A stretch of 64,000 nt of DNA, from the NCBI GenBank assembly GCA_016806145.1, contig CP063166.1, positions 1,550,001 through 1,614,000 of the forward strand. Reading direction: 5' to 3'. This DNA comes from Variovorax paradoxus (GTDB taxonomy: Bacteria > Pseudomonadota > Gammaproteobacteria > Burkholderiales > Burkholderiaceae_C). This document shows positions 34,122 to 57,820 of the stretch, piece after piece. The position numbers were made by a program, and so were the translations under genes. The notes beneath the pieces are model-generated. The model was given only the letters and a program-made list of their open reading frames with translations, did no database searches and was not told the origin of the DNA. Each line of letters opens with the position of its first letter. Positions within the stretch are counted from its first letter, which is position 1.

Positions 34122-34197
34122 GCCGCTTTAGCTCAGTTGGTAGAGCACCCGCCTTGTAAGCGGAAGGTCGTCCGTTCGATTCGGACAAGCGGCACCA
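34122..34197 (+). tRNA. tRNA-Thr (anticodon TGT)
   Basis: A full cloverleaf can be folded: acceptor stem GCCGCTT/AAGCGGC, D-arm GCTC…GAGC, anticodon loop CTTGTAA with anticodon TGT, T-stem GTCCG/CGGAC with TTCGATT loop, discriminator A and an encoded CCA. One mismatch is present at the outer pair of the anticodon stem. It reads ACA codons. The sequence just downstream is disturbed by an insertion element and decayed genes. Confidence 0.96.
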
Positions 34198-34270: not shown

Positions 34271-34379
34271 CGCATGAAAAGCCGAGATCGCCATGTGATG
34301 CGAATCTGAAGTCCAAACAGTTACGCTCGAGTTCCTTGAGAATCCTTCTGAGGTAGGCCTATTAAGGAATAGGTTGGTA

Positions 34380-34399
34380 GTGTGGTGAGTTAGAAGTTC
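34380..34399. repeat. Left terminal inverted repeat of the IS630 element
   Basis: The 20 bases GTGTGGTGAGTTAGAAGTTC are the exact reverse complement of the right end, next to the TA target site. Confidence 0.95.
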
Positions 34400-34459
34400 A
34401 TTGAATTATTCTTGAACGTTGATGTCTCTCGTGTACCGTGTGTACTCGACGAGGCTGCA

Positions 34460-35545
34460 ATGAGCGGAAGACCCAAAGCGACATTGGTTTTGACGGACAC
34501 CGAGCGCGAAGAGCTTAGGGCGTTGACGCTGCGACGCAAGACAGCGCAGGCCTTGGCGTTGCGCGCGCGCATCGTGCTGGCCTGCGCCGAAGGGCAAGAC
34601 AACAAGGTGGTCGCGGCGCGCCAGCGCGTCACACCGCAGATGGTGAGTAAGTGGCGAGCACGGTTCGTCGAACAACGCCTGGATGGTCTGCTGGACGCGC
34701 CGCGCAGCGGTGCGCCAAGAACCATCGACGATGCCCGGGTGGATGCGGTGATCGCCAGGACGTTGGAGAGCGTGCCACACGGGGCGACGCACTGGAGTAC
34801 GCGCACAATGGCCAGCACAGCCGGGCTTTCGCAGACGGCCGTCTCGCGCATCTGGCGTGCCTTTGGCTTGCAGCCGCATCGCCAAGAGACGTTCAAGCTG
34901 TCGAGTGATCCGATGTTTGTCGAGAAGGTACGAGACATCGTCGGCCTCTGCATGGATCCGCCTCTGATGGCGATGATGCTTTGCGTAGACGAGAAAAGCC
35001 AGATCCAGGCGTTGGATCGCACGCAACCCCTGCTGCCGCTCGCTCCTGGCATCCCCGAGCGGCGCACCCATGACTACGAGCGCCATGGCACGACCACGCT
35101 GTTCGCGGCGCTCGACATCGCTACAGGTGCGGTCATCGGCCAGATGCACCGGCGCCACCGCAGCAGCGAGTTCCTGCAGTTCCTGCGAACCGTGGAGGCC
35201 AGCGTGCCAGCGGTGCTGGACATCCACTTGGTCATGGACAACTACGGCACACACAAGACGGCTTCGATCAGATCGTGGCTGGCCCGCCACCCGCGCATTC
35301 ATGTGCACTTCACGCCGACTTCGGCGTCATGGCTCAACCAGGTCGAGCGCTGGTTCGCGACGCTCACTCAACGCTGCATTCGTCGCGGCACACACCGTTC
35401 CACGCGACAACTCGAGCAGACCATCCGGGAGTACCGGGACATCAACAATGCCAAGCCGAAGCCCTTTGTTTGGTCGAAAACCGCCGAAGACATCCTCGCC
35501 AGTGTCGAGAGATTTTGTCTGCGAACTTCTAACTCACCACACTAG
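34460..35545 (+). CDS. IS630-family transposase
   Basis: A 361-residue transposase. N-terminal helix-turn-helix regions (around [16 protein letters not shown] and [14 protein letters not shown]) bind the ends. The DDE catalytic residues are in [22 protein letters not shown] and [10 protein letters not shown], as in IS630. ATG 34460 (MSGRPKATL) is preferred over a frame-extending ATG at 34412. The stop codon TAG is made from the target-site TA plus the first flanking base, so the element itself does not carry a full stop codon. Confidence 0.93.
35523..35542. repeat. Right terminal inverted repeat of the IS630 element
   Basis: An exact reverse complement of the left end. It also encodes the last six or so codons of the transposase. 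Confidence 0.95.
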
Positions 35546-37615: not shown

Positions 37616-38508
37616 TTTTTTGGCTCATAGGGCGTTGGGGATGGCACGCGGTTGAAAAGAAAGTTCGACGATGAGGCATCGAGCCATCCAGCGACCGGCA
37701 ACGTGTGCGGGTGATTCTAGTTCTACCGTGACTTGGTATCAAAAAGGCGTCGGCGAGCGCACGACCTCGACTGGCCCGGCGCCAAAGTGAAGGCCATTGG
37801 CCGCGCTGGTCGCGTACCGGGAAATAACCTTTTGGCAACTCGGTGACGGAATAGTCGGTGGGCAGGCCTGGGAGGATGTGGGCCTGGTGCCGGCCAGTGG
37901 CCTTGCACGGAGCATGCAAAAGTGTGGGGTAGGTTTGGATCACCGGGGCCTTCCGGGCACCACCCACCATGACTGATGGATGGCCGGATCGCTCGGCAGG
38001 TGAGGATCAACGCCTACCAGCCGCATTCCCACGCCATCATGGCTCGCAGCCAGCAGTGGTCAAGCTCGTAGAGAAGCGCGTTCTCTGAGGCGGTGGAGCT
38101 GGGGAGGATGAATGCTTGTGAAAACGGCATGCCAACGCCAGGCGTCTTCGAATGCATACGCAGCCAGCCGAAGATGAAGTTGGCCTTGGCCTTTTCCGCA
38201 GGGAGTAGCTTGCCATCGCGGTAAAGCATATGATGGCATCTCGAGCCTAGGATGATAGACATTTGGGTCAAAGAAAATGCATAGCCTACTTAGCCCGGCT
38301 AGACCTGCCTGCTGCGCTTGTGCTTTGCTTAAAGGAGAGAACAGAGTGCGCCAGTTTGCGTTGGCGTATTGCTCAAAAAAATCATAAAAGGAAGCGGGGT
38401 AAAGGCTTTGATCTGAACTCCGCCCAAGGATGTTTCGCACCTAAGGCCATTTACGTTGGAGTCGTGCGATGGAGGTGGGGGTTTATGTTTTTTCATGCGT
38501 TGTCCTGT
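37616..38508. other. No confident gene; probably decayed or foreign sequence
   Basis: About 0.9 kb. Several short overlapping frames occur on the − strand: 37599–37970 (123 codons), 38014–38271 (85 codons, the most protein-like, including YRDGKLLPAEKAKANFIFGW) and 38060–38440 (126 codons). I recognise none of them. The two overlapping frames at 38014–38440 could be one frameshifted gene. Base composition is mixed and below that of the core genes. Confidence 0.45.
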
Positions 38509-39185: not shown

Positions 39186-39710
39186 AGCGGGTGAAGTTCG
39201 CATCGCTGATTCTTGATAGCCAACCTGGCCATCGATAGTAGGCGCCCCGATCGAAGTGAACCACGGGCCGCGCCGTGCCTCCAGCGCGCCCGTCGATGCG
39301 TTCGAGCCAAGCGGCCGCGTGTTCAAATTCATGCCCCTTCAGGTTCGCGGCGCCTTCGCGCTGCAGCCGGGTCCAGGCCTCGAAGCACTACCCCACCATG
39401 CCGAGCCGCCGATTTGCGCATCGAGCTGGATCCGAAAGGTGAAGCTGGCCACATCGTGTCCTGTACGGTGACTTCCTACCCTGAACTTCGATGACATAGG
39501 GACGCTCGCCGCCCATCGTCTCGACCGCCAAGGACCGAGTATGCCGAGACACCGTAGCCGCCTGCCAGGATCATGAGACGGGCCACTTCGCGCTGGCGCG
39601 GGGTGTCGCCCCGCGTGTGCACAGGACGCGCCCATATGCGATGCTGTGAAACGCCGCGTGGCCCGTTTGACTTGCGGACAAAGACACGCTCTCCTGCAAG
39701 CAGCCGCGGG
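39186..39710. other. No confident gene between racemase pseudogene and SWIM gene
   Basis: About 0.5 kb with only short, unrecognised frames on both strands. It probably contains the join between the disturbed segment that follows tRNA-Thr and the conserved yeh-type operon. I found no repeat of the tRNA 3' end here by eye. Confidence 0.5.
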
Positions 39711-41841
39711 CTATTGCCCCACCTTGTGCATCCACAGGCTCAGCAGCGCGAGCCGACCCACCAGCGTGCCGCGCTGCGCCGCGCGTAACTGGGCGGGCAC
39801 GCCGCGCAGCAGCCTGGCGCTGCGCGCGAGCCCGGCCCGCTCGAGTTGCGCGGCCTGCGTTTCGGCGCGCGAGCCGGCGCCGCCGCCCTGGTGGCGCAGG
39901 CCCTGGCGCAGCCACAGCGCGAGCAGGTCGGGTGTCGGTGGCGAGCGCGTTGAGCGCGGGCGGCTCCTCGTGCTCGCCCTGCAGCGGCAGCGGGTGCGGC
40001 GCGGGTGCCTCGGCCTGCAGCACCACGGCGCGCTGCACGGTCAGCAGGGCCGTCGGCTGCATCACGGGCTCGCCGTCCTGCAGCCGCACGCTGCCGGCCA
40101 CGGCGCGCAGCGCGCCCCATTCGCCGGCGAGCGCGCGCGCGAGCGCGTCGACGGCGCCGGGCGCGGCCGCGCGATGGGGCAGGGCGAGGTGCAGCGGCGG
40201 GACTTCATCGGCAGGCGCGGCCGCTTCCGTGTCGTCCGCCGCGCGCCCGATGCGCGCATGCAGCACCTGCGCCGCCGCATCCCAGTGGCTGGCCAGCACC
40301 GCCATGTGTTCGAAGGCCGCCACATGCAACTGGCCCGAGGCGCCCGCCGCGGCACCGCTCGCCGCCTGGCGCGGCCGCACGAAGTCGGGCGGCGTCTCGC
40401 GCAGGTGCGCGACCAGTGCCTGCACGCTCGGCTGCTTGAGCGGCGCGACGAGATCGTCCCAGGACTTCGGCGACAGCGGCATCACGCCGGTCTGGCGCGC
40501 ACCGGGCGCGATGTCGATCTGGCCGTTGGCACGCCGGGTCGCGGTCTTGGTGATGACCTGCCCGCTCGCGAGCTGCCGCAGCGGAAAGCCCGCGACGCGG
40601 CGGCCCAGCAGGTTGGCGGGCGTGCCGCCGGCCGTGGCATCGTCGGCGCGCGACCACTGGCGCTCGAGCACCGTCACGGCCTGCGTGTCGGGGTCGGCGA
40701 ACATCACGCTCGCGCCTTCGCCGCTCTCGTCGGACCAGAGCTCGGCGCCCAGCGACACCAGCCGCAGGTGATCGAGCGCGACCTCGCCCTTCACGCCCAC
40801 GCCGAGGATCTGGCTCGCGGGCAGTGGCGGCGGCCCGGCCGCGCCGTCGGCATGGGCGGCCGCGCGCAGCCGCGCCCAGAGCTCGGCCATCACGTGCAGC
40901 AGGCGCCGCGGATCGAAGCGGCTGCTGCGCGCCTGCTGCGCCTGCAGCAGCATCCAGAGCTCGTCGATGCCGTCCTCCACCCAGCGCCAGCCCAGCGCGC
41001 GCGCCTGCTCGCGCGCGGCCTCGAAGCGCGCCGCCAGCGCCATCAGCGGCTGGCTCGAGCCATCGAGCCAGAGCGAGAGGCTCAGCGCCTCGAGCTTCGC
41101 CTGCAGCGCGCGCGCGGCCTCGCCGTGCATCAGCGCCGCGGGGCGGTGGCCGTCGCCAGTCTCGTCGTCGGCGGCCGGCGCGCGCACTTCCACCATGCGC
41201 TCGGCCGAGCCCCCGGCCAGCGGCCCGGCCTGGCGGAAGGCCCACAGCGCCACCACCACGTGGGCGCAGCCGCTGCCCTGCTTGCAGTCGCAACGCGCAT
41301 GCACCAGCGAGCTGCGCGAGAAGAAGCGCACGCTGCACATCGGCAGCCGCGCGATCGGCGGCGCGCTCGCGCTGCGCCAGGCCTGTACCGCGACCACGGG
41401 CCGCGCGGCGGCCAGGCGCTGGGCCTGCTCGATGACGGAGGGCGCGAAGCTCGCGGCCAGCGCGGCGTCGTCGAAATGGGCCGGGCTCCATTCGCCGCCC
41501 GCGGCCGAGGCGTCGACCTCGTCCTTCGCCGGCGTGGCCGAGGGCGCGGGCGCGGCACTGGCCGCCTGCGCCTGGTAGGCCAGCACCAGCATCACGCGGT
41601 GCCGGCACATGCCGCTGGCCGGACAGCTGCACTGCGCATCGCGCAGGGTGCGGCCCGGCGGCAGGCTGGTGCGCACGCCGTCGTCGAAACGCGCGCTCAC
41701 CGTGCCGTCGTCGGCGGTCTCGAGCACCGGCAGCAGGCCGGCCGCCACGTCCTTCTGCGCGCGCTTCACGAAGCCTGCGTTGGCGAGCGCGGTCAGCGCC
41801 TCGGGCGTGAGTTCGAGCAGGTCGCCGCGCACCGCCGTCAT
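39711..41841 (-). pseudogene. yehQ: SWIM zinc-finger protein (YehQ-like), apparent single-base frameshift near its end
   Basis: Read from ATG 41841 (ATGA overlap with the VWA gene). Two SWIM-type CxC…CxH motifs are visible: Cys71, Cys73, Cys79 and His81 (CSCPASGMCRH), and Cys184, Cys186, Cys192 and His194 (CDCKQGSGCAH). The frame is normal up to NALATDT, then turns into arginine-rich nonsense ending at 39571. Adding one base to the GGG run at 39930–39932 restores a credible tail (PDLLALWLRQGLRHQGG … LLSLWMHKVGQ), which stops at 39711. Either a real one-base deletion or a sequencing error; only the last 70 or so residues are affected, so the product may still fold. Confidence 0.8.
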
Positions 41842-42962
41842 GCCTGCACCTTCTCGGCCAGCCAGCCCGCGAGCTGGCCCGGCGTCATGGCGCCGATCTG
41901 CGCGCCCTCGCGCACCAGCCGCGCGGCCATCTCGCGGTCGTAGCTCGGCTCGGCCTTCGCATCGAGCGCGGCCAGGCCCAGCACCTTGGCGCCGGCCTCC
42001 ACCAGCGCCTTCACGCGGCGCACCAGCTCGTAGGGGCTGCCGCCCTCGTAGAAGTCGCTGACCAGCACCACGATGGTCTTCGCGGGATTGGCCACCAGCG
42101 ACTGCGCATAGGCCACCGCCTTGGCGATGTCGGTGCCGCCACCGAGTTGCACCTTCATCAGCAGCTCGACCGGGTCCGACACGTCGGCCGTGAGGTCGAC
42201 CACCGCGGTGTCGAAGGCCACCAGCCGCGTGCGCATGCCGGGCAGTTGCCAGAGGCAGGCGGCCATCACCGCGCTGTGGATCACCGAGTCGACCATCGAG
42301 CCGCTCTGGTCGATCAGCAGGATGATGTCCCAGGGCTCGGCATGGCGCTTGGTGCGGCTGATGAACACCGGCCGCTCGACGTAGAGCTTGCGCCGCTGCG
42401 GGTCGTAGCGGTGCAGGTTGGCCGCCAGCGTCTGCTTGAAGTCGAAGTTGCGCGCCACCTTCATGCGCGAGCGCCGGCGCCGGTCGCGGCTGCCGCTGAA
42501 GGCCTGCCGCACCTCGGTCGCGAGCTTCTCCATGATGCGCCGCACCACCTCGGCCACCAGCTTGCGCGCGGCCGCGAGCACCTCGGGGTTCATCAGGTGC
42601 TTGGTGTGCAGCACGGCCCGCAGCAGCGATTCCGAAGGCTCGATGCGCTCGAGCACCTCGAGGTTGGTCACCACCTCGTCGATGCCGTAGCGCTCCACCG
42701 CGTCCTGCTCGAGCCGCTCGATCACCTCCTTGGGAAACAGCGTGTGGATGGCGTTGATCCAGTCGGGCGTGCTGAGCGCCGAGGGCCCGAGGCCGGCGCT
42801 GCGTTCGCCGCGCTCGGCGCGGTCGCCGTCGCGGCCGTAGAGCCAGTCGAGCGCGGCGTCGGCCGCCTGCGCCTCGGCGCTCAGGCCGCCGCAGGCCCGC
42901 TCGGCCGGATCGCCGAGCAGCAGGCGCCAGCGCTGCAGCGGATCGGGGATGTCGAGGCTCAT
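41838..42962 (-). CDS. yehP: VWA-domain protein, YehP-like
   Basis: A 374-residue protein with a C-terminal von Willebrand A domain. The MIDAS motif DQSGSM is at residues 218–223, and further metal-site residues are in GGGTDIAKA and VSDFYEGGS. The N-terminal half is helical and includes a basic segment (SRDRRRRSRMKV). VWA proteins encoded next to MoxR ATPases are thought to act as their substrate adaptors. Its start overlaps the DUF5682 stop and its stop overlaps the SWIM start (ATGA in both cases), so the three are translationally coupled. Confidence 0.92.
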   Translation of the reverse strand: MSLDIPDPLQRWRLLLGDPAERACGGLSAEAQAADAALDWLYGRDGDRAERGERSAGLGPSALSTPDWINAIHTLFPKEVIERLEQDAVERYGIDEVVTNLEVLERIEPSESLLRAVLHTKHLMNPEVLAAARKLVAEVVRRIMEKLATEVRQAFSGSRDRRRRSRMKVARNFDFKQTLAANLHRYDPQRRKLYVERPVFISRTKRHAEPWDIILLIDQSGSMVDSVIHSAVMAACLWQLPGMRTRLVAFDTAVVDLTADVSDPVELLMKVQLGGGTDIAKAVAYAQSLVANPAKTIVVLVSDFYEGGSPYELVRRVKALVEAGAKVLGLAALDAKAEPSYDREMAARLVREGAQIGAMTPGQLAGWLAEKVQA

Positions 42963-45367
42963 GGCTGTTCTTCCGTATCCAGGCTCGGCAGGCTCAGGCC
43001 CCAGCCGGCCAGGCGCGCGATCGCCGCATCCTCGGCGGCGCGCGCCGCGGCCAGCGCCTCGGGCGCGGCCTCGCCCTCGCGCCGCGCCGTGAGCGCGCGG
43101 CGCGACAGGTGGGTGGCATCGTGCAGCGTCAGCACCTGGTCGGCGAGCCGGCCGCGCTCCTGCGGCGGCAGCCAGGCGAAGGCCGCGCGCAGGCTCGGCA
43201 TGGCGCGCACGAAGTCGGCGTTGTCCAGTGCCTGCACGGTGCGGTCCATGCCGGCGGCGAAGGCGGGCTCGGACGACAGCGTCTCGCGCGCCAGTGCGAG
43301 CAGGCCCGTGAGCGCATCGCCGAGCACCGGCGCGGGCATCGCGTGCAGCAACTGCATCGCATCGGCCACGCCGGCCTGCGTGGCTTGCGGCACGCGGTGC
43401 GCGAGGCTCAGCGTCGCGCCCAGCGCCGCGCCGCGGCTCAGCGGTGCCGCGCCGGCATCGGCCGCCTTGCGCTGCCACACGGCGAGCGCGCGCGCGGGCT
43501 CCACGTCGAGCGGCTCGGCTTGCGCGGCGTCCTCGCGATCGGCCAGCACGTCGGCCACGATGCGGCGCAGCGCGAGGTGGCCCTGCAGGTGCGCGTCGAT
43601 GTCCGACGGCGCGATCGCGGCGGGCGGCTCGAGCAGCCACAGCGCGCGGTCGAAGCCGGCCTCGATCGCCACCCGCAGCACCGGCGCGTCGGCCATGCCG
43701 AGCAGCTGGCCGTGGCGCAGCAGTGTGTGCATCACCGCGAGGGCCGGGCCCATGGCCTCGAAGCGCGGCTCCCGCGCCATCGCCTGCTGCAGCTCGCGCA
43801 GCAGCGCGCCGCTGAGCGCCGGCAGGCCGGCCCAGGCGGCCTGGTTGAGGCCCTCGGCCAGCGGACCGATGCGGCCCTGCGCATGGCGCAGCTCGTCCTC
43901 GAGCCGCGCGCGCGCCGCGTCGTGCAGGTTGGCGCCCCAGGCGCCGGCCTCGATCAGCGCGGCCTGTTGCTCGAAGGGCTGGCCCAGGGTCCAGACCTCG
44001 GTGCGTTCGCCCGACATCGCGAGCTTCGGTCCCTGGCTGCGCACCACGCCGGGCAGGCGCAGCAGCGCGAGCCGGTGCAGCACGCGGCTGCGCGCGCGGT
44101 CGGCGGCATCGAGCAGGTCGAGCTTGCGCTGGCCGCGCAGCTCGAGGCCGTGCGCCGCGAGCTCGTCGCGCACCGCCTTCACCAGCGGCGGCTGCGGCGT
44201 GCCGTCGGCGAGCTGGCCCGCGATGTCGCCGGCCAGCACGTCCATCGCCTGCACCAGCACCGGCGCGGTGCCGGGGCGCATCGGGCCGCGGTAGGTCCAG
44301 GGCAGCCGCGCGTCCAGCGCTTCCTTGACCAGGGCGCCGGCCAGCGCGTCGAGCCAGTCGGAGCGCAGCGGCTTCTCGTGGCCGCGCAGCCGCGCCAGGC
44401 CCTGCGCGCGCAGGTGCACCGCCATCAGGTCGGCGGTGGAGGCAGGCAGCCTCTTGTCGCGCAGCCGCTGCATCACCTGCTGCAGCGCGCGGTGCGCGGC
44501 GCCCTCGGGGCCGAGCTCCCACATCCACTGGTAGTAGGCCGGCGAGGGCATGCCCGAGGCATAGCCCGCGAAGGCATCGAGCCGCTTGAAGGTGTAGGGC
44601 ACGAGGTAGGAGCCGTAGCGCACCACGGGGTCCTGGTCGCGGGCATCGGGCGTGTCCTCGACGCTGGGTTCGGGCGTCTCGGGCAGCTGCGCCGGCAGCC
44701 CGGGCCATAGCCGAGCGAGCGCGGGCGCGTGGTAGCCGCCGCAGACCACCAGCACCGGCGCGCCGGCCCGCACCGCGGGCTGCGCCATGGCCCAGGCGAT
44801 CCAGCGCGCCATCATGGTCTCGCGCGCCTGGTTGCCGAGCGAGCCCGGGTCCTCGCCGCGCAGGTGCTCGAAGTAGGTGGACAGCCGCTGCGCGAGTTCG
44901 GCGCTGTCGCAGCCGTCCTCGAACAGGTGGTCCCACAGCGCATCGCGGCCCTGCACCGAGAGCTGCTCGGTCAGCGCGCGCTCGTAGGCCGCGGCGCGTT
45001 CCTCGTGCTGGGTGTCGGCCACGTCGGCATAGCGGTTCTCCATGCGCGAGAAGGCGTCGTGCCAGGCCGGCAGGTCGATGAAGCGCACGTCGGCACCGAC
45101 CTCGCGGCCCACCTGCAGCGCCTGCCATTCGGGCGAATGCTCGGCGAACGGTGACCACGAGCCGTGGTGCGTCTCGCCGGCCGAGAGGTAGCTGTAGATC
45201 GCCACCGGCAGCCGGTGCGGCAGGTAGAGCTCCTCGAGCCGCGCGTTGAAGTCGGCCGGGCCCTCGATCAGCACATGGGCCGGGCGCAGCGCGCGGATGC
45301 GCTCGGCCACCAGCCGCGCGCAGGCGGGGCTGTGGTGGCGCACGCCGACGATGTGGGGCGCGTTCAT
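42959..45367 (-). CDS. yehM: DUF5682 protein, YehM-like
   Basis: An 802-residue protein of unknown function. The conserved N-terminal part has GVRHHSPAC (residues 8–16) and LIEGPADF (33–40), then WSPFAEHSPEW and a segment VLVVCGGYHAPALARLW. Paired histidines, an EGP motif and a later GGxH suggest a metal or catalytic site and recall, in general layout, the EreA/ChaN/TraB-like enzymes; that link is only my inference. The remainder is helical and alanine-rich. ATG 45367 is chosen because the conserved motif begins there; the frame upstream runs through a palindromic repeat. Confidence 0.85.
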   Translation of the reverse strand: MNAPHIVGVRHHSPACARLVAERIRALRPAHVLIEGPADFNARLEELYLPHRLPVAIYSYLSAGETHHGSWSPFAEHSPEWQALQVGREVGADVRFIDLPAWHDAFSRMENRYADVADTQHEERAAAYERALTEQLSVQGRDALWDHLFEDGCDSAELAQRLSTYFEHLRGEDPGSLGNQARETMMARWIAWAMAQPAVRAGAPVLVVCGGYHAPALARLWPGLPAQLPETPEPSVEDTPDARDQDPVVRYGSYLVPYTFKRLDAFAGYASGMPSPAYYQWMWELGPEGAAHRALQQVMQRLRDKRLPASTADLMAVHLRAQGLARLRGHEKPLRSDWLDALAGALVKEALDARLPWTYRGPMRPGTAPVLVQAMDVLAGDIAGQLADGTPQPPLVKAVRDELAAHGLELRGQRKLDLLDAADRARSRVLHRLALLRLPGVVRSQGPKLAMSGERTEVWTLGQPFEQQAALIEAGAWGANLHDAARARLEDELRHAQGRIGPLAEGLNQAAWAGLPALSGALLRELQQAMAREPRFEAMGPALAVMHTLLRHGQLLGMADAPVLRVAIEAGFDRALWLLEPPAAIAPSDIDAHLQGHLALRRIVADVLADREDAAQAEPLDVEPARALAVWQRKAADAGAAPLSRGAALGATLSLAHRVPQATQAGVADAMQLLHAMPAPVLGDALTGLLALARETLSSEPAFAAGMDRTVQALDNADFVRAMPSLRAAFAWLPPQERGRLADQVLTLHDATHLSRRALTARREGEAAPEALAAARAAEDAAIARLAGWGLSLPSLDTEEQP

Positions 45368-45408
45368 CCTTGGCAACCGCGAGCGTCTATGAATGCGGGA
45401 TCGGACTT

Positions 45409-45521
45409 CCGGACGCAGAGGACGCGAAGATTTCGCGAAGGTCGCGAAAGGAACAGCCCCAAGAAGTTTTTCATTTCTTCTTTCGCGTTCTTCGCGGAAC
45501 CTTCGCGTCCTCTGCGTCCGG
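45409..45521. repeat. Palindromic intergenic repeat, copy 1
   Basis: The arms 45409–45429 and 45501–45521 are perfect 21-bp inverted repeats (CCGGACGCAGAGGACGCGAA plus G), with further pairing inside, so the transcript would form a long hairpin. The same arms occur at 57711–57820 and, diverged, at 62461–62586. This copy lies inside the yeh-type operon, between the MoxR and DUF5682 genes. Translation of the repeat gives arginine-rich nonsense frames. Confidence 0.93.
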
Positions 45522-45562
45522 CTGTTGGTGTTGTTTGCTGGTCGCCCATGGCACAACGCTTC

Positions 45563-46705
45563 TCAAGGCAGCCGATGGCGTGCTTCGTAGTAGGCGCGCC
45601 AGTGCTCGCCGCTGCGCTTGGCCGCCTTCTGCTCGAAGTAGCGGCGCAGCTTGGCGCGGTCGTCGGCGTTGTCCTTGACCACCGTGCCCGCGATGCAGTC
45701 GACCAGGTCGGCCGGCGAGCCCTCGCGCTGCTCGAGGAACCAGGCGCGCACGCCCACCGCGTGCGCCACGTTGACCGCCTCGGCGGTCGACATCACGGCC
45801 GTGAGCCGGTCCATCGCGGCATCGCTGCCGCCGCCGTTCTTCTCGGAGGAAGCGGGCGCGCCGCGCAGGTCGCGGAAGGTGGCCACCAACAGCTCGAGCA
45901 CCGGCTGCGGCACGGTCTTCGGAATGCCGCTCTGCGCGAGCAGCCGCGCTGACGATTCGCGCACCAGCGCGAGCTCGCGCTCGAAGTCGAGGATCGGGAA
46001 CACGGTCTCGAAGTCGAAGCGGCGCTTGAGCGCGGCGCTCATCTCGTTGACGCCGCGGTCGCGCGTGTTGGCGGTGGCGATGATGTTGAAGCCCTCGCGC
46101 GCATAGAGCATGCCGTGCTCGCCCGAGAGCTCGGGCACGGCCATCACGCGGTCGGACAGCATGCCCAGCAGGCAGTCCTGCACCTCGAGCGGCGCGCGCG
46201 TGATCTCCTCGAAGCGCACCACCTGGCCCTGCTGCATGCCGATGTACAGCGGCGCCGGCACCATCGCGCGCGGGCTCGGGCCCTCGTTGATCAGCAGCGC
46301 GTAGTTCCAGCCGTACTTGATCTGGTCCTCGGTGATCGAGGCGCCGCCCTGGATGGTCAGCGTGGACACGCCCGAGATCGCGGTCGCCAGCAGCTCCGAG
46401 AGCATCGACTTCGCGGTGCCCGGCTCGCCCACCAGCATCAGGCCGCGGCCCGTGGCAAGGGTGACCAGCATGCGCTCGATGCTCGCGACCGGCGCGACGA
46501 TCTTCGGCGCGATGCCCAGCGGCGCATCGCCGAGGATGAAGGCGCGCGCGGCCTTCAGGCTCATGGCCCAGCCCGGCGGGCGCGGGTCCTTGTCCTGCGC
46601 CTGCAGCTGCGCGATCTGCGCGGCGTACTGGATCTCGGCGGGCGGGCGCTGCAGGGCGGGGGAACCGGTGGGTGGGGTGTCGGTCGGCTTGCGGGAGGTG
46701 GCCAT
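45563..46705 (-). CDS. yehL: MoxR-family AAA+ ATPase, YehL-like
   Basis: A 380-residue AAA+ ATPase. Walker A GEPGTAKS is at residues 93–100, Walker B VVRFEEI ends at Glu167, and sensor 1 is ATANTRDRG. The short lid region ends near residue 360. The neighbouring VWA, DUF5682, SWIM and DUF4132 genes place it in the YehL branch of MoxR ATPases. MoxR proteins act as chaperone-like remodelling machines with VWA partners, but the target of the YehL branch is not known. It is separated from DUF5682 by a 195-base gap holding the palindromic repeat. Confidence 0.93.
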   Translation of the reverse strand: MATSRKPTDTPPTGSPALQRPPAEIQYAAQIAQLQAQDKDPRPPGWAMSLKAARAFILGDAPLGIAPKIVAPVASIERMLVTLATGRGLMLVGEPGTAKSMLSELLATAISGVSTLTIQGGASITEDQIKYGWNYALLINEGPSPRAMVPAPLYIGMQQGQVVRFEEITRAPLEVQDCLLGMLSDRVMAVPELSGEHGMLYAREGFNIIATANTRDRGVNEMSAALKRRFDFETVFPILDFERELALVRESSARLLAQSGIPKTVPQPVLELLVATFRDLRGAPASSEKNGGGSDAAMDRLTAVMSTAEAVNVAHAVGVRAWFLEQREGSPADLVDCIAGTVVKDNADDRAKLRRYFEQKAAKRSGEHWRAYYEARHRLP

Positions 46706-46792
46706 GGTCGGGATCGGTGTCGGATCTGAAAAGGGCGCGGGATGGTGCCCGCGGAAACATAGCAGAGCGATGGCAGGACGGCGCAGCGCTCC

Positions 46793-49700
46793 TCAGCGCG
46801 CGCCCAGCGCGTCGATGTCGCGCACCGCCTCGCTGAAGACGATGGGATCGAGTTCGCAGAACGGGTGGCCGTGGTGCAGCACGTCGAGCGTCTGGTCCTC
46901 GCCGGCGCCCGCGTTGTCGAGGCCGGGCCCGAAGCGCAACGAGAGCGCGCGACCGCCGCCCAGCCCTTGCCAGGCATGGTCGTAGGCACCGCCGCCGCCG
47001 CGCCCGCGCAGCCAGCCGCGCGACTCCAGCGCCCACAGCGGCCCGGGCCGCGCGATGCGGCCCGACCAGCGTGTGAGCGCGGTCAGCGTGCGTTCGTCTT
47101 CGCGTGGTGCATGCACGGCGCGGTGCAACTGCTCGAAGGGCTGGATCAGCTCGTAGTCGGCGAACTGCTGCGCGAAGGCGGCGATCTGCGCGGCGCTCAG
47201 CTGCAGCGGATGGGCGACGACGATGCGCGCGGCGGCGCCATCGTCGAGTGTCTGTGGCACTTCATCGGCATCGACCCATTCGCCTTCGGCGCTCACGCGG
47301 AAGGCGGCGCGCAGCAGCGTCAAGCCGCGCGCATCGCGCCCGCCCTCGCTCACGCCCCACACCAGCCGCTCGGCCAGGTGGCGCATCAGCGGATGCCCGG
47401 CGATGAAGCGGCGGAAGTCCTCGACCGGCCAGCCGCGGCCCGTGCGCATCGCGCGTTCCAGCCGCAGCGGCTGCTGGGCCGCGACGGTGGCGGCATCCTG
47501 CTTGAGCGCCTTGAAGCGTTCCGCGGCCGTGGCCGCGCGTTCGGCATCGTCGCTCGCGCGCGGCCGCGGCGCCGAGGCCAGGCGCGCGCCGGGCCGGCCC
47601 TCGACCGATTCGCGCACGAAGGGCACCAGCGCCTCGTCGAAGCCGACGTGGAACTGGCGCGGCCCGAAGTCCAGCAGCAGGCCGCCGCGCTCGTCCAGGC
47701 CGAGGTCGGGCGCGATCCGGTCCTCGAGTTCGTCGGCGCTCAGGCCGCGTTCGGCCGCGGCCTGCGCCAGCTTCTCGGCGGCCGCATGGCGCACCGTGGC
47801 GATGCGGTTCTTGCGCGCGATCGCGTCGAGCTGCATCAGCGCGACGTCGCTGCCCAGCCGCGCCAGCGCCTCGAGCACCCAGCCGATGCGCGTGGCGGTG
47901 CCGCCGGCGCCGGGTGCGCTCCAGCGCCGCACGAGGGCGCCGAGCCGGCGCGCCGTGTCGTCGGTGCCGACGAGGCCGAGCGCGCGCAGTGCCCAGTTGC
48001 CCGGCGCGCCGGCGCCAGCGGCCTCCCACGATTCGCAGACGTCCCAGCCGAAGTCGGCCAGGCTCTGGGGCTCGCAGGCGGCGCGCACGGCGTCCAGGCC
48101 CGCATAGCCCTGCGGCAGATCGGCCGCGAAGCTCAGCATCAGGCCCAGCGGCTGCAGTGCCTCGTCGGGCAGCGCGAGGCCGTCGTCGCGCAGCCGCGGC
48201 TTGCGCCAGCCGGCCGGTTGCCAGAAGGTCGGAAGCTTGCTGCGTGCGTGGATGCGCGACGGGAAGTCGCGCAACGGGTCCTCGGCCAGCAGCGCATCGA
48301 CGGCGGCTGCCACGGCCGGGTCGTCGTGGCGGCGCGCGGTGGCGCGCAGCGCCTCGGCCTGTCCCAGCGCGGCCATGGCGCGCAGCGCGGCGCGGGCCTG
48401 CTGGCGTGCCTCGCCCTCGGGGCCCAGCACGGCGGGCAGCAGGCCGGCCGCGCCATGCGGCGCGAAGCGCACCAGCCACTGCCGTGCTTGCGCGCGGCGC
48501 GTCGGTCGGCGTGCGAGCGCCTGCGCCATGAAGGGCGCGAGCTGCGTGGCCCCGATGAAGCGCGCGACGAAATACTCGTCGCCGTCGTTGGCCAGCGCCT
48601 GCAGCAGGCCCGGCAGCGCGGCGCTGCCGAAGCGTGCCACGAAGCCGCCGGCGCGCGGTGCTTCCTTGCCACTGCCCACGGCATTCCAGAACGCCAGCCC
48701 GGTGGCCGGCGGCAGGAACCAGGCGGCCTGCACCGCAATGAAGTTGCCGTACTGGCGGCGGTCGGGCGCGGCATCGTCGTGCACGCGTTGCCAGTCGGCG
48801 ATGAAGCGCTCGAGCTCCCGCGGCGGCTGCGTGTGCAGCGCGGCGACGCGCTCCGGCGTCCATTCGCGCAGCCGCTCGCCGATGGCGCGCTCGGCCTCCA
48901 TCGGCTGGCGGTAGACATAGGGCGTGTCGCGGTCGATCCAGTCCTGTCGGACCTCGTCGCCCCAGTCCTCCTCGGGCGGCACCTCTAGCACGGGCAGGCC
49001 GGCCAGCACCAGCGGCGGCGCCGCATCGGCCGCACGCCGCGCCCACGGCGGGTCGGCGAGCACCGCGGGCCAGCGCGCGCGCTCGGCGAAGGCTTCTGGT
49101 GCCGACCCGGACTGGTCGGCGACCGCGCCGAGCTGGCGCCGCACGGCCGCCGGCAGCGCCGGCAACAGCGCGGGCAAGCGCTCGCCGAGCGTGCCGGCCA
49201 GGGTCTTGAGCTGTGGCACGAGGCGCGCGGCGCCGGCTTTGGGCAGGCCGCCGTCCTCGAGCACCTGCGCGAGCGCGAGGAAGCAGCGCTCGGGCCGTTC
49301 GCCCGCGACCCAGCCCAGCGCCTTGGCACAGGCGGCGTCGGCGGCGGTCATGCGCGCCAGCGCCTCGGCGGCCTCGGGCGTGTCGAAGGCGGCCAGCGTC
49401 CAGGCCACGGCCACGCTGCGCTGGCGGGCGCCGAGGTCCAGCAGCAGCGGCAGCAGCGCCTCGCCGTGTTCGCGCAGCAGCAGCGCGAGCATCGACGGCT
49501 GGTCGAGCAGCCGCATGCCGTCGCCCGCCACCTCGGCCAGCGGCAGGCCGGCGGCCCAGCGCAGCCAGGGACCGCAGCGCTCGAGCTGCTCGGGCGTGGC
49601 CTGCTCGAACAGCTGCCGCGCGCGCGGGCGCCATTCGGGCAGCGCGATCGCGAAGCGGGCGCGCGCGGCCAGCGGCAGCTGCGGGTCGAGCGCGCGCAGC

Positions 49701-50227
49701 CGTTCGATGCAGGCGGCGCGCGTCGCGGCGTCGGCCGCCATCCAGTGGCCGCGGAACTGCCACAGCGAACTCGCGGGCTGGCCCCAGAAGGAATGGGCGC
49801 CATCGTCGGGTGGCGCATCCTGGCGCAGCGGCTTGTGGCCGATACGTTCGCGGCGCCAGCGCGCCGCATGCAGCAGCGCGTCGAAGGCCGTGTCGAGGCC
49901 GTGCTGCAGCACCAGCCAGTGCACCAGCGCCTCGGCCGGCTCGTCGCGGCCGGTGTAGGCCTGCTCGCGGAAGCGCGCGATCATCAGGCCCAGCAGCCGC
50001 GTGTCGGCCGCGTCCATCGCGGCCTCGAGCCAGCCGCGCGTGGCGGGCGAGCGCACTTCGAAGGGCTCGGGCAGCAGCGCGTCGACCGCGTACTCGTTGC
50101 ACTTGTCGAGCACGCGCTTGCGCAGCGTGGGCAAGGTCGAGGCCTTGGGCGGCGGCTTCGCGCCGGGTTCGCCGGGCGGCAGCGCGTTCTGGAGTTCCGG
50201 TGGCAGCACGAGCGGCGCCGCGCTCAT
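46793..50227 (-). CDS. DUF4132 protein without WGR domain, YehI paralogue
   Basis: A 1144-residue protein. The middle (about 150–750) is a long run of alanine/leucine-rich helices that look like HEAT-type repeats. The C-terminal third is DUF4132 and can be aligned with the next gene: ELEDRIAPDLGLDERGGLLL, FGPRQFHVGFDEAL, FADYELIQPFEQL. It lacks the WGR domain found at the N-terminus of the upstream paralogue. Tandem duplication of a yehI-type gene is the simplest explanation. Its start lies 62 bases after that gene; the first 14 bases of this gene (ATGAGCGCGGCGCC) also occur around the upstream gene's stop codon. Confidence 0.85.
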   Translation of the reverse strand: MSAAPLVLPPELQNALPPGEPGAKPPPKASTLPTLRKRVLDKCNEYAVDALLPEPFEVRSPATRGWLEAAMDAADTRLLGLMIARFREQAYTGRDEPAEALVHWLVLQHGLDTAFDALLHAARWRRERIGHKPLRQDAPPDDGAHSFWGQPASSLWQFRGHWMAADAATRAACIERLRALDPQLPLAARARFAIALPEWRPRARQLFEQATPEQLERCGPWLRWAAGLPLAEVAGDGMRLLDQPSMLALLLREHGEALLPLLLDLGARQRSVAVAWTLAAFDTPEAAEALARMTAADAACAKALGWVAGERPERCFLALAQVLEDGGLPKAGAARLVPQLKTLAGTLGERLPALLPALPAAVRRQLGAVADQSGSAPEAFAERARWPAVLADPPWARRAADAAPPLVLAGLPVLEVPPEEDWGDEVRQDWIDRDTPYVYRQPMEAERAIGERLREWTPERVAALHTQPPRELERFIADWQRVHDDAAPDRRQYGNFIAVQAAWFLPPATGLAFWNAVGSGKEAPRAGGFVARFGSAALPGLLQALANDGDEYFVARFIGATQLAPFMAQALARRPTRRAQARQWLVRFAPHGAAGLLPAVLGPEGEARQQARAALRAMAALGQAEALRATARRHDDPAVAAAVDALLAEDPLRDFPSRIHARSKLPTFWQPAGWRKPRLRDDGLALPDEALQPLGLMLSFAADLPQGYAGLDAVRAACEPQSLADFGWDVCESWEAAGAGAPGNWALRALGLVGTDDTARRLGALVRRWSAPGAGGTATRIGWVLEALARLGSDVALMQLDAIARKNRIATVRHAAAEKLAQAAAERGLSADELEDRIAPDLGLDERGGLLLDFGPRQFHVGFDEALVPFVRESVEGRPGARLASAPRPRASDDAERAATAAERFKALKQDAATVAAQQPLRLERAMRTGRGWPVEDFRRFIAGHPLMRHLAERLVWGVSEGGRDARGLTLLRAAFRVSAEGEWVDADEVPQTLDDGAAARIVVAHPLQLSAAQIAAFAQQFADYELIQPFEQLHRAVHAPREDERTLTALTRWSGRIARPGPLWALESRGWLRGRGGGGAYDHAWQGLGGGRALSLRFGPGLDNAGAGEDQTLDVLHHGHPFCELDPIVFSEAVRDIDALGAR

Positions 50228-50288
50228 TCGAAGACCTTCGTGCTTCGCACTGCGGTGCGGGCTTGCTTGGGGCTACCCGGCGCCGCGC

Positions 50289-53200
50289 TCATGCCCTCAG
50301 TCCCTCCATGTCGCGGATCAGCTCGCTGGCCGAGATCGGATCGAGCTGGTCCAGCGTCTCGGCGTTCTGCATGTTGCCCCAGCCCGAGGGCTTGCCGACC
50401 TGCACCTCGCCGAGCTTCTGCTCGGGGTACTCGTCGACCATGCCGACGATGATGCCGGGGTCGAGGTAGAGCTCGATCACGCGGCTCGGGCCCAGCGGCT
50501 TGGTGAAGTACCAGATGCCGCCACCGTCCTGCGCCTCGCCGCGGCGCCAGCCCTTGTTGACCAGGCCCAGCACGCGGCCCGTGGGCACGGTGGCGTCCTT
50601 CCAGCGCTCGAGCTTCTGGCTCTTCTTCTCGTCCTCGGTCAGCACGTAGGTGTCGCGGCCGATCTGCGCGAAGGGCTGCAGCAGCTCGTAGTCGGCGAAC
50701 ACCTGGCCGAAGGCGCCCGCGTCGGCAGGCGAGATCTCGAGCGCATGCGGCACGCCGATGCGGATGTCCTCGCCCGCGGGCAGTTCGAAGGGATCGTCCT
50801 CGGCGGTGGTGAAGCTGCCGTCCTCGGCAACGCGGAAGCACGCCAGCAGCTCGCCGCCGTAGCTGGCTTCGCCCTGCACGCGGTAGGCGCCCCAGATCAG
50901 CCGCTGCACCAGGTGGCGCACCAGCGGATGCTCGACCAGGAAGGTGCGGAACACCTCGGGCGTCCAGCGCCGGCGCGCGCACATCGCGACCTCGAGCCGC
51001 AGCAGCTGCTGGCTCGCGATGGTGCGCACGTCCTTCTTGAGCAGCTTGAAGCGTTCGACCGCCTCCTTGCTCTTCTCGGCGTCGTCGGTCTTCTTGGGCT
51101 TGGGCAGGTCGGACAGGCGCGCGCCGTCGACGCCATCGGCGCGCTCGCGCACATAGGGCTTGAGCGCCTCGTCGAAGCCGACCTTGAAGCTGCGCGGCCC
51201 GAAGTCCAGCAGCAGGGTGCCCTGTTCGTCGAGGCCGAGGTCGGGCGCGAGCCGGTCCTCGAGCTCCTCGGTCGAGAGGCCGCGCGCCTCGGCGATCGTG
51301 TCGATCTTCTCGCGCGCGCGGTCCTGCAGGCCCTTGAACTTCACCTTCTGCGCGATGCCGTTGAGCAGCATCAGCGCCACGTCGGAACCGATGCCGGCCA
51401 GCACGTCGAGGCCGGTGACGGCGCGCGCATGCGCGGCCTCGCCAGGCCAGGCGCGGATGAAGGGCGTGAGCCGGCGCGCCGTGTCGTCGTTGCCGAGGAA
51501 ACCGAGCACCGTGAGCGCCCAGCCTTCCTTGCTCGGGCCGCCGGCCTCGAGCCAGGCGCTGAACGCGTCCCAGGCGAAGTCGGCCAGCGACTCGGGTGCA
51601 CAGGCCTCCTTGACCACCGCGATGCCGCCGTAGACCTCCTCGTTGGTCGGGAAGGTGAACATCTGGCCCAGGTGGTCGAGCGCCTCGTCGGGCAGCGCCT
51701 TGCCGTTGCGCAGCACCGGCCGGCGCCAGCCGCGCGGCTGCCAGAACTCGGGCAGCTTCGCGCGCTTGGTGGGGAAGCGGTCGAGCGGGCTTTCCTCGAG
51801 CACGGCGCGCAGCGCCTGCACCACCTCGTCCTTGCCGTAGCGGCCGGCGACCTCGAGCAGCAGCTCGGCATGGCCCTCGGCCTGCAGCAGGCGCAGCGCC
51901 GAGCCCGCCACGTCGCGCGCCTCGCCGGCCTTGCCGAGCGCGGTCGCGATCAGGCCGCAGGCCGCGTGCTCGGGATACCTGAGCAGCCAGTCGCGGCCGG
52001 CCTGGCGCGCGGTCTTGAGCTTGGCGAAGGCGCGCGCGGCCGGTGCCGCGAGTTCCACCGCGCCGTAGTTCAGCGCCAGCTGCAGGTTCTCGCCGGGCTT
52101 GGCGCGCACCACCGACAGCAGCCCCGGCAGCGCGGGCAGGCCGAAGTTCGCCATCACGAAATCGGCGCCCTGCGTCTCTGCCTGGCCGGCCACCGCGTTC
52201 CAGAACGGCACGCCGATCTCGGGCGGCAGCAGCGCCGCATAGCGCGCATCGAACCAGAAGAAGTAGTAGCGCTCCTGCTTGCGCGCGGCCAGCATGCCGC
52301 GCCAGGCGGCGATCAGCTTGCCCGCATCGCCGCCGCGGATGCCTTCGCGCGCGGTGTCGAGGATCGGGTCGCGCAGGCTCTCGAGCAGTTCCTTCTCGCG
52401 CGCCTCGCCGCGCTGGTGGATGTCCTGCAGCACGGCGGCGTCGGGCATGTCCTCGGCCTCGTAGGCGGCCTGCATCAGCTTCACCTGCTCCTCGTGCGCG
52501 AGCTTGCTGGCCTTGCTCTCGAAGCCCAGCTCCTTGAGCATCACCTGCACGTCGGTGCGCGCGGTCGCGAAGCGGTTGACCTGCCACGAGGTGCCGGGCC
52601 GCTGCGCTTCCTCGCGCGCGCCCGGCGCCCACTGCTCGACCGGCGCCAGCGCGAGCGGCTCGAGCGCGAGCACCGCGGCCGCCTTCTTCTGCACCTTGGC
52701 GAGCCAGGGCGGCGAGGCCAGCACGCCCGGCAGCTCGCTCGCCTCGGCGACCTCGCTCGGGCCCGACAGCAGCGCGAGCTGGCGGTCGATCGCGCCCTGC
52801 GCGCCGGCATCGAGCCAGGGCCGCAGGCCGTCGACCAGGCCGCCATGCGCGCGCAGCAGCCGCGTGAGGCTGGGCGTGAGCAGGCCCGCGTCCTTGCCGC
52901 CGGCCGCCACCAGCCGCGCCAGCGCGACGATGGCGGCCTGCGGCCAGCGGTCCACCGCGAGCGACAGCCGCGCCAGCGCCGCCTTCGAACCGCTCGCGAC
53001 CTTGGCGAGCGCCGCCACCGCCTCGGGCGTGCCGATGGCCGCGAGCGTCTCGCCCGCGTGTTCCTCGGCCGCGCCGCGTTCGAGCAGCGCCACGGCCTCG
53101 GTGCCGCGCTCGAGCAGCGCGGTGGCCGTCATCTTGTAGTGGCCCCAGAAGCCGCTCGAATAGCTGAGCCGCACCTTCGCGGCCTGCGCGGCGGCGGCGG

Positions 53201-54575
53201 CATCGGTGATGGTCAGCAGCAGCCAGTGCAAGGTCTCGCCGCTGTCCTTCTCGCCGGCCAGGCGCAGCGCGAGCGCGTTCGAGAGTTCGGGCCGCTCGGG
53301 CAGCAGCAGCGCCGCCAGCGGCTGGCGGCTCGGATGCAGCGAGGGCAGCGCGGCCTCGATCAGGTCGGCGCACTGCTGCCACTCGGCCTCGGGCGCGGTC
53401 GAGAGCTGCTCGCGCAGCACTTCCTCGGCATCGCCCACGGCGCCGTACCAGCCGTGGTTGACCGCATGGCCGGGGTTGCTCGAGAAATGGCTGCGCCACT
53501 TCTTGGCCTGCTGGTCGTAGCTGCCCTCCACCTGCAGGCGCAGCGCCGACAGATAGACCTCGATCGCGCCGGCCAGTCCGTACTGCGCGACCAGGTACTG
53601 GATCAGGAACACAACAGAGCCGGCCTTGTCGCGGCGCGTGTTGTGGTCCATGAAGGCCAACAGCAATGCATCGGCTTCGGCATCGGGCGCGGGCGCGACG
53701 GGCTTGTCGCGCGCGAGCATGCGTTCGGCCGCGGGCCGCAGCGCGGCATCGGTCGCGGCCATGTCCAGCGGCAGCTCGAGGTCGTTGCAGGCCCGCTTCC
53801 AGGCCTGCGCGAGGTCGAGCACCGGACGGGTCGAGGGGAAGCGCCGCGAGGCATAGGCGAACTCGCGCGTCTGCGACGTGATGCGCAGCGGCGCGCCCTG
53901 CGCGAGCCAGGGCGGCGCGCCTTCGGCCACGGGCTGGGCCGGCACCTCGCTGCGCGCGGTGGCCGTGCGCTGCGCCAGTTCGCGTGCCGCATCCTTCGCC
54001 TTCTCGCGCACCTCGGCGGTGGTGCCCCAGCCCGACAGCAGGCCATGGGACTTGAGCTCCTCGAAGGCCATCGTGGCGCCTTGCTCGCTCACGCCGTACT
54101 GGCGCTTGAGCGCGGCGGCCGAGAACTTGTCGCCGCTCTTGACGCTGCCGTCCTCGATCGCGATGCGCACGGCCTCGACGACGCGCTCGCACTGGCTGTC
54201 GAGGCTTTCGCTCGCGACGGGCGGCGGTGCCGGCGTGGCGGGTGCGGTGGCGACTGGTGCCTGCACCGGTGCCTGGGCGGGTGCGGCGGCAGGCGCCGCG
54301 GCGGGTGCGGCAGCCGGCGCTTCCGCCTTCGGTTTGACCTCGGTCTTGCCGATGCTCGCATCGGCGCTCACGCCGACTTCCTTGTAGCCCTTGCCGGTCT
54401 TCTCGCTCACCAGCTTGGTCAGCGCGGTGGCGGTCTTCGCGGCATCGGCGAAGGACTTGGTCTGGCTCTGGCCCGCGGTGCCAATGCGGCCCCAGCGGAT
54501 GTTGAGATCGTTCTCCGCCTGTTCCACTTCCCAGAACTTGCTGGCGGTTCCCTCGATCAGTTCAAAACGGCGCAT
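50289..54575 (-). CDS. yehI: WGR–DUF4132 protein, YehI-like
   Basis: A 1428-residue protein, the first gene of the operon. Residues 1–75 are a WGR domain (NIRWGRIGTAGQ, with WGR at 28–30). An Ala/Pro-rich linker (about 85–125), a short helical segment that may be a winged helix, long helical repeats, and a C-terminal DUF4132 domain (ELEDRLAPDLGLDEQGTLLL and onward) follow. E. coli YehI has the same WGR–DUF4132 layout at about 1200 residues. WGR domains bind nucleic acid ends in PARP proteins, so DNA or RNA contact is possible but unproven here. AGGAGG lies 11 bases before the ATG. Confidence 0.88.
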   Translation of the reverse strand: MRRFELIEGTASKFWEVEQAENDLNIRWGRIGTAGQSQTKSFADAAKTATALTKLVSEKTGKGYKEVGVSADASIGKTEVKPKAEAPAAAPAAAPAAAPAQAPVQAPVATAPATPAPPPVASESLDSQCERVVEAVRIAIEDGSVKSGDKFSAAALKRQYGVSEQGATMAFEELKSHGLLSGWGTTAEVREKAKDAARELAQRTATARSEVPAQPVAEGAPPWLAQGAPLRITSQTREFAYASRRFPSTRPVLDLAQAWKRACNDLELPLDMAATDAALRPAAERMLARDKPVAPAPDAEADALLLAFMDHNTRRDKAGSVVFLIQYLVAQYGLAGAIEVYLSALRLQVEGSYDQQAKKWRSHFSSNPGHAVNHGWYGAVGDAEEVLREQLSTAPEAEWQQCADLIEAALPSLHPSRQPLAALLLPERPELSNALALRLAGEKDSGETLHWLLLTITDAAAAAQAAKVRLSYSSGFWGHYKMTATALLERGTEAVALLERGAAEEHAGETLAAIGTPEAVAALAKVASGSKAALARLSLAVDRWPQAAIVALARLVAAGGKDAGLLTPSLTRLLRAHGGLVDGLRPWLDAGAQGAIDRQLALLSGPSEVAEASELPGVLASPPWLAKVQKKAAAVLALEPLALAPVEQWAPGAREEAQRPGTSWQVNRFATARTDVQVMLKELGFESKASKLAHEEQVKLMQAAYEAEDMPDAAVLQDIHQRGEAREKELLESLRDPILDTAREGIRGGDAGKLIAAWRGMLAARKQERYYFFWFDARYAALLPPEIGVPFWNAVAGQAETQGADFVMANFGLPALPGLLSVVRAKPGENLQLALNYGAVELAAPAARAFAKLKTARQAGRDWLLRYPEHAACGLIATALGKAGEARDVAGSALRLLQAEGHAELLLEVAGRYGKDEVVQALRAVLEESPLDRFPTKRAKLPEFWQPRGWRRPVLRNGKALPDEALDHLGQMFTFPTNEEVYGGIAVVKEACAPESLADFAWDAFSAWLEAGGPSKEGWALTVLGFLGNDDTARRLTPFIRAWPGEAAHARAVTGLDVLAGIGSDVALMLLNGIAQKVKFKGLQDRAREKIDTIAEARGLSTEELEDRLAPDLGLDEQGTLLLDFGPRSFKVGFDEALKPYVRERADGVDGARLSDLPKPKKTDDAEKSKEAVERFKLLKKDVRTIASQQLLRLEVAMCARRRWTPEVFRTFLVEHPLVRHLVQRLIWGAYRVQGEASYGGELLACFRVAEDGSFTTAEDDPFELPAGEDIRIGVPHALEISPADAGAFGQVFADYELLQPFAQIGRDTYVLTEDEKKSQKLERWKDATVPTGRVLGLVNKGWRRGEAQDGGGIWYFTKPLGPSRVIELYLDPGIIVGMVDEYPEQKLGEVQVGKPSGWGNMQNAETLDQLDPISASELIRDMEGLRA

Positions 54576-57710: not shown

Positions 57711-57820
57711 CCGGACGCAGAGGACGCGAAGGTTGCGCGAAGGACGCAAAAGGAATGCAAGAAAAATTTTGAATTTCTCTTTCGCGCCCTTTGCGAAATC
57801 TTCGCGTCCTCTGCGTCCGG
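57711..57820. repeat. Palindromic intergenic repeat, copy 2
   Basis: The same perfect 21-bp arms as copy 1, at 57711–57731 and 57800–57820, with imperfect pairing between them. It lies between recJ and the RpfE-like gene. Confidence 0.93.

Follow-up and report, generated by a model that had tools for sequence, protein, structure and literature searches.

A MoxR–DUF5682–VWA gene set of Variovorax paradoxus and its possible kinship with a damage-induced operon of Deinococcus

Background

The window analysed here, a 64,000-nt stretch of Variovorax paradoxus contig CP063166.1 (positions 1,550,001 to 1,614,000), contains a six-gene set that includes a MoxR-type AAA+ ATPase, a DUF5682 protein and a VWA protein, and its closest described counterparts are found in Escherichia coli and Deinococcus. 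E. coli K-12 carries, in this order, yehF (WGR), yehH (a DUF4132-like pseudogene), yehI (DUF4132), yehK, yehL, yehM, yehP and yehQ. A sequence-only reading of the window had stated that no function is established for this set; none was found for yehL–Q in the open-licence literature searched, and documented regulation was found for a sister operon. In D. deserti, the five genes Deide_18730–18690 (ddrTUVWX), the first encoding a SWIM product and the last a CoxE-like VWA protein, are induced by radiation in an IrrE/DdrO-dependent manner and have a radiation/desiccation response motif (RDRM) upstream (PMC5552922). In D. radiodurans, DRA0165–DRA0166 (DUF4132) and DR2173 (WGR) are DdrO targets, and their proteins rise with mitomycin C only if IrrE is present (PMC8533742).

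Comparative analysis of the Variovorax locus revealed that MoxR, DUF5682 and VWA are the fixed core of the system, and that the SWIM protein and a large repeat protein are its variable part. The explanation that we prefer, while giving it somewhat less than an even chance, is that the locus is the Variovorax form of an ancient and modular remodelling machine for the response to stress or damage, whose MoxR–VWA pair would drive a DUF5682 hydrolase.

Genetic organization of the locus

The host genome comprises 9.44 Mb in three contigs. ORF (open reading frame) and Pfam analyses bore out the six-gene content proposed earlier; all six genes lie on the − strand, from 54575 down to 39571. The features of the locus are as follows.

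50289–54575, − strand: WGR-DUF4132 protein, 1428 aa; WGR at residues 7–67 and DUF4132 at 1151–1343 (Pfam)
46793–50227, − strand: DUF4132 protein, 1144 aa, paralogue of the upstream WGR-DUF4132 gene (Pfam)
45563–46705, − strand: MoxR (YehL-like) AAA+ ATPase, 380 aa, catalytic motifs intact (Pfam, alignment)
45409–45521, no strand: hairpin between the MoxR and DUF5682 genes, 42-nt arms, 90% complementary
42959–45367, − strand: DUF5682 (YehM-like) protein, 802 aa; N-terminal TraB/TIKI-like candidate hydrolase domain, predicted C-terminal helical solenoid
41838–42962, − strand: CoxE-like VWA protein (YehP-like), 374 aa, metal ion-dependent adhesion site (MIDAS) intact (Pfam, alignment)
39571–41841, − strand: SWIM protein (YehQ-like), open frame of 756 aa with fingers at residues 71 and 184 and a change of frame near 39931
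39720–39935, − strand: SWIM C-terminus conserved in relatives, here in another frame

The Pfam E-values were 8e-50 and 1.2e-46 (DUF4132), 4.4e-16 (WGR), 5.1e-33 (AAA_5), 1e-96 (DUF5682), 3.8e-62 (VWA_CoxE) and 8.4e-07 (SWIM, two stretches). The window thus has the gene content of a YehL-type system, with MoxR, DUF5682, VWA_CoxE and SWIM genes (the last with its frame change) adjacent to DUF4132. According to the coordinates, the first three intergenic gaps are 61, 87 and 195 nt long, and the DUF5682/VWA and VWA/SWIM gene pairs overlap by 4 nt. The six genes had been described as one operon; a single transcript can only be inferred, because the hairpin separates the MoxR gene from the DUF5682 gene.

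Co-conservation and distribution

We tested whether these genes fail to be co-conserved; this proved not to be the case. In a phylum sample of 299 genomes, including that of the window, DUF5682 was detected in 12 genomes and DUF4132 in 10. DUF5682 proteins scoring 325–371 bits occur in eight genomes, all of which also encode DUF4132, and the two matches lie within approximately 4 kb of each other in seven of them (on separate contigs in G167). No genome among the 289 that lack DUF4132 carries this type of DUF5682 (Fisher p = 3e-14); the type is also missing from two DUF4132 genomes, G007 and G200. Five more DUF5682 genes, scoring 658–865 bits, have no adjacent DUF4132.

Among named genomes, the best 80 of 566 relatives were examined, a sample that leans toward the window's type. 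MoxR was found in 75 of these loci, VWA in 77, SWIM in 68, DUF4132 in 63 and WGR in 19, several loci being cut by contig ends. For the 61 loci that extend at least 5 kb before and 9 kb after DUF5682, the respective numbers were 59, 60, 55, 53 and 16. The window's order, DUF4132-MoxR-DUF5682-VWA-SWIM, is found in 39 of the 61; DUF4132 comes last in eight, the trio stands alone (by the profiles used) in four, and ten have other orders. Exceptions include DUF5682 without MoxR (L061 and L070) and the lack of DUF4132 at L032 and L066. Of the former two loci, both planctomycete, L061 keeps the VWA gene without an adjacent MoxR gene, and L070 has none of the other parts by the profiles used. Judging from record titles, the loci span Pseudomonadota, Actinomycetota, Planctomycetota, Verrucomicrobiota, Bacillota, Bacteroidota, Myxococcota and Acidobacteriota. 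The set is kept together far above chance, and the claim that it persists over a wide distance holds across phyla.

Matches to the yehL–Q region were found in 5301 of 5426 E. coli genomes, and in 5162 they covered 80% or more of its length; the yehF–yehI stretch reached at least 80% coverage in 4057. Transposon disruption of the latter stretch has been reported in 184 isolates of sequence type 131 (PMC9334617). Plasmid copies were identified in Iodobacter, on a mobilizable plasmid with type I restriction genes and an integrase beside the operon, and in Methylosinus; an E. coli plasmid carries the yeh region flanked by IS26 copies. The nearest named relatives of the window's DUF5682 are Variovorax proteins with at most 83% identity. 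Of the DUF5682 copies detected within the genus, 11 score as the DUF4132 flavour and five as a DUF5691 flavour, by score alone.

A sister flavour and its counterpart in Deinococcus

Nine loci without DUF4132 (L013–L017, L093, L099, L101 and L102) share a different SWIM protein and a protein of the 664-aa class. Two representatives of this class were scanned, those of L014 and of D. taeanensis (L104), and both were assigned by Pfam to DUF5691, with weak HEAT matches in L014. Judged by sequence, DUF5691 and the other SWIM protein replace the DUF4132 and SWIM pair, which defines a sister flavour of the system. In D. taeanensis the genes are located on a plasmid in the order SWIM-DUF5691-AAA-small gene-DUF5682-VWA. 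An RDRM-like site lies 37 nt before the SWIM gene; it differs from the consensus at two positions and is the best one of the locus. This layout fits that of D. deserti ddrTUVWX.

The MoxR ATPase and its VWA partner

Alignments of 90 sequences each (the window's own counted among the 90 MoxR proteins) revealed that the MoxR residues G93 and P95–K99 (Walker A), E166–E167 (Walker B), N213 (sensor 1) and R228–R229 are kept in all 90; position 100 is S in 81 and T in nine. In the VWA protein, D218, S220, S222, T277 and D303 are likewise kept in 90/90 and G221 in 87/90. The Walker A, Walker B, sensor 1 and MIDAS motifs are therefore intact, as had been proposed, and from its key residues the MoxR protein is predicted to be a functional AAA+ ATPase. 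Together with the Pfam assignments, these alignments agree with a chaperone-like ATPase acting with a VWA partner. YehL is the relative of this MoxR protein in locus L004 (2e-172).

DUF5682, a candidate enzyme

TraB, PrgY and GumN are grouped as the TIKI superfamily, the defining signature of which is GxxH. In DUF5682, the residues H11, E35, R182 and H213 are invariant and ordered as in TraB proteins, so that the signature order GxxH, E, R, GxxH is present; the first motif begins with G in 56 and with P in 36 of the 94 sequences. These invariant, ordered residues lend support to the suggestion that DUF5682 is a candidate enzyme. Searches of solved-structure sequences with TraB and DUF5682 gave nothing significant. 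The comparisons of fold and of profile are suggestive of a kinship with TraB, and not decisive.

DUF4132, WGR and SWIM proteins

The two DUF4132 proteins of the window share 439 identical residues of 1106 aligned. The model of the C-terminal 539 aa of the DUF4132 protein (mean predicted local distance difference test score 92.3) contains helical repeats and an alpha/beta part, which upholds, for this half, the prediction of helical repeats in the large proteins. The alpha/beta end had no clear match among the matches listed; since helical repeats fill these, it is not called a new fold. Residues 130–181 of the WGR-DUF4132 protein gave a weak GntR-like winged-helix match, below the Pfam cut-off, and the region behind WGR was matched in L025, L026 and L027 only. 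A third, lone DUF4132 gene is present in the same genome (G000:C1:6645309-6645878; L022), with no conflict genes recognised alongside.

The SWIM gene switches frame near 39931–39935, its main open frame extending to 39571. The relatives in L024, L025 and L027 follow this frame to approximately residue 637 and then the next frame for 63–74 residues; the end at 39711 given previously agrees with where the other frame stops. The switch may reflect either a real mutation or an assembly error. Two fingers are present in the window's SWIM protein, as had been noted, and this is not a general feature: with our own pattern, two or more fingers were found in 27 of 75 relatives and one in 46.

WGR is a DNA-break domain. 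The argument from nucleic-acid-binding domains is weaker than first put, WGR being confined to 19 of the 80 named loci.

Genomic context

A second copy of the hairpin is located at 57711–57820, beyond recJ, and the pair looks like a dispersed repeat resembling repetitive extragenic palindromes. The recJ gene lies upstream of the operon at a distance of 1.3 kb in the window and approximately 1.5 and 2.2 kb in Variovorax loci L025 and L026, respectively; the chromosomal site is therefore common to the three. The G+C content falls to 0.45–0.57 at 4001–14000 and 36001–38000, compared to 0.70–0.77 across the operon, which suggests that the low-coordinate side is foreign DNA. Perfect 22-nt inverted repeats 1.1 kb apart (34378–35544), resembling the ends of an insertion sequence, lie beside a tRNA-Thr gene (34122–34197).

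Proposed mechanism and its alternatives

In the preferred explanation, MoxR would assemble into a ring powered by ATP, which the CoxE-like VWA protein would link to its client, by analogy with other MoxR–VWA pairs. The client or partner is probably DUF5682, which is nearly always encoded between the two and which, judging from motifs and models, may consist of a TraB/TIKI-like, probably metal-dependent hydrolase domain and a helical solenoid; the VWA protein would present or activate it. SWIM and the large repeat proteins (DUF4132, or DUF5691 in the sister flavour, some with WGR) would target the machine to damaged nucleic acid or to proteins bound to it. Gene content, gene order, invariant motifs and predicted folds are observed, and damage-induced expression of relatives is published; we infer complex formation, an enzymatic activity with a substrate and a damage role for the window's copy. 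The stress-response interpretation already offered for the window gains support from the published regulation of the sister Deinococcus operon (PMC5552922), and a damage response is the only reading for which published regulatory evidence was found in the articles consulted.

Several observations weigh against this explanation. Published damage regulation is limited to Deinococcus, and the identification of D. deserti ddrTUVWX with the sister flavour rests on gene order and product names. No LexA-type box with fewer than three mismatches was found upstream of the window's operon (the host may use other damage motifs), and none of 73 upstream regions contained a LexA box, against 1 of 730 control windows. 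As to a TraB kinship, Foldseek returned zero matches at E ≤ 0.001; hhalign against TraB gave a probability of 3.8% (E 0.011, motifs in register), the esterase family 4.4%, and three control families 1.3, 0.1 and 0.3%. A Tetrahymena chain of putative identity, presumably chain DQ of 8b6h, was matched as well. The rarity of WGR noted above counts here too. Within the genus the system is patchy (DUF5682 in 16 of 41 genomes), and three of the 11 DUF4132-flavour copies are broken into pieces.

Some candidate lines of evidence were discarded. Damage boxes at the 73 loci were not used: strict SOS boxes numbered 1 (control 4/730) and loose ones 3 (40/730), and loose RDRMs before the operon numbered 3 (7/730), all three being AT-rich sites with up to five mismatches. 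An erythromycin-esterase kinship of DUF5682 was rejected, as the profile alignment spans 24 columns only.

An anti-phage or conflict system with a logic like that of MoxR-vWA-VMAP, in which the repeat proteins would detect an invader and the motor would then trigger a DUF5682 effector, appears unlikely. Such ternary systems have been found with clustered regularly interspaced short palindromic repeats (PMC10910872). The patchiness within the genus and the restriction genes and integrase on the Iodobacter plasmid also speak for it, as do neighbours of lone DUF4132 genes: type I restriction and Fic genes at L020, and elsewhere AbiEii with an N6-methylase, a NERD helicase, a PIN gene or RNA repair genes. 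Conflict or RNA-repair genes were recognised at five of eight lone loci (L018, L020, L131, L132 and L133, not L019, L021 or L022), a figure that has no control rate. However, conflict-like neighbours occur mainly at lone DUF4132 genes and the one plasmid copy, and no relatives of the L020 and L106 type I restriction proteins turned up near the other loci that were searched. PADLOC gave one weak match (1.9e-3) in the six operon proteins. Of 217 flanking ORFs selected, 134 were within the residue limit and cover 47 loci (up to L074). A WGR piece and two ORFs whose start is at position 3 were set aside, and the remaining 131 proteins matched six PADLOC models with one or two members each, no sign of the enrichment in defence islands that had been raised as a check, albeit with no control set. 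A phage home was looked for and not found: a pattern scan of viral contigs gave no relatives, and 50,697 phage records gave one unannotated match. Because yehL–Q is near-fixed in E. coli and nearly absent from phages, dedicated phage defence by the full operon is less likely, and the conflict half of the earlier interpretation has weak support at best for the complete operon.

About equally improbable is an RNA-repair or RNA-damage response, in which SWIM and DUF4132 would serve beside RtcB as RNA-side adaptors on cleaved or stalled RNA–protein complexes. RtcB is encoded in 7 of 10 DUF4132 genomes compared to 67 of 289 others (p = 0.003, a post hoc test uncorrected for genome size and lineage) and in all 4 of the additional DUF4132 genomes, in none of these four on the DUF4132 contig. 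It lies less than 5 kb from DUF4132 in 2 of the 10 genomes, G246 (full operon, L005) and G007, against a crude expectation of 0.08 pairs; the lone DUF4132 gene of G007 (L018) is part of an RNA-repair island with RtcR, RtcA, RlaP, KptA and two RtcB genes. RtcB also occurs near the DUF5691-type locus L101, and the D. deserti table of radiation-induced genes also includes an RtcB-family gene (PMC5552922). On the other hand, only 5 of 12 DUF5682 genomes encode RtcB, and in the window's genome it is megabases from the operon. RNA repair is plausible as a variant of the damage response. Still less probable is metallocofactor maturation, the insertion of a metal or cofactor by MoxR–VWA into DUF5682 or another enzyme, as CoxD–CoxE is thought to do. 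The CoxE-like VWA protein (Pfam) and the ligand-like residues of DUF5682 are in keeping with it, and molR is reportedly essential for molybdate use in E. coli, according to the title of one study (cited in PMC8533742). Maturation or activation of enzyme complexes is a role of MoxR proteins (PMC3893208); nevertheless, moeA and moeB were not co-regulated with DR2173 and DRA0166 (PMC8533742), and clusters of neighbouring ORFs, judged by eye, show no recurrent metalloenzyme.

The damage-response explanation can be extended to a more doubtful proposal, that the yeh and ddrTUVWX sets represent two flavours of a single ancient machine that crosses phyla, comprising a MoxR–VWA motor, a TraB/TIKI-fold metallohydrolase (DUF5682) and interchangeable SWIM and HEAT-type (DUF4132/DUF5691) adaptors aimed at damaged nucleic acid or proteins on it. 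No description of such a two-flavour damage-response hydrolase system was found in the open-licence literature searched. If true, it would add an ATP-driven damage-response system with swapped adaptors and a constant motor and enzyme-like part. The link to a radiation-induced Deinococcus operon, with the conserved candidate active site, makes this orphan set testable in a standard laboratory strain.

Comparison with known systems

The window's operon has the same families in the same order as E. coli yehF–yehQ, and the previously noted match to yehI-L-M-P-Q was confirmed. E. coli differs in having a separate WGR gene (yehF), an annotated pseudogene (yehH) and an extra small gene (yehK), whereas in the window WGR and DUF4132 are fused and the SWIM gene has a frame change. 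RavA–ViaA and other MoxR–VWA pairs likewise comprise a MoxR ATPase and a VWA protein (PMC3893208); the window has, in addition, DUF5682 between the two, as well as SWIM and DUF4132. A MoxR and VWA core is also common to the MoxR-vWA-VMAP (bpMoxR) ternary systems, yet the bpMoxR score in the window is 15.9 bits (cut-off 27), no VMAP family was found in the six proteins and no PADLOC match was strong. With TraB/PrgY/GumN, DUF5682 shares the motif order; it differs in having no significant sequence-profile match to them and a long helical C-terminal part. Finally, the Deinococcus ddrTUVWX operon begins with SWIM and ends with a CoxE-like VWA gene, to which the D. taeanensis layout adds a MoxR-type AAA protein and DUF5682. 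It differs from the window in its other SWIM protein, its gene order and its IrrE/DdrO control, while the window carries DUF4132 in place of DUF5691 and has its SWIM gene last, so that the Variovorax locus represents a sister system of ddrTUVWX rather than a member of it.

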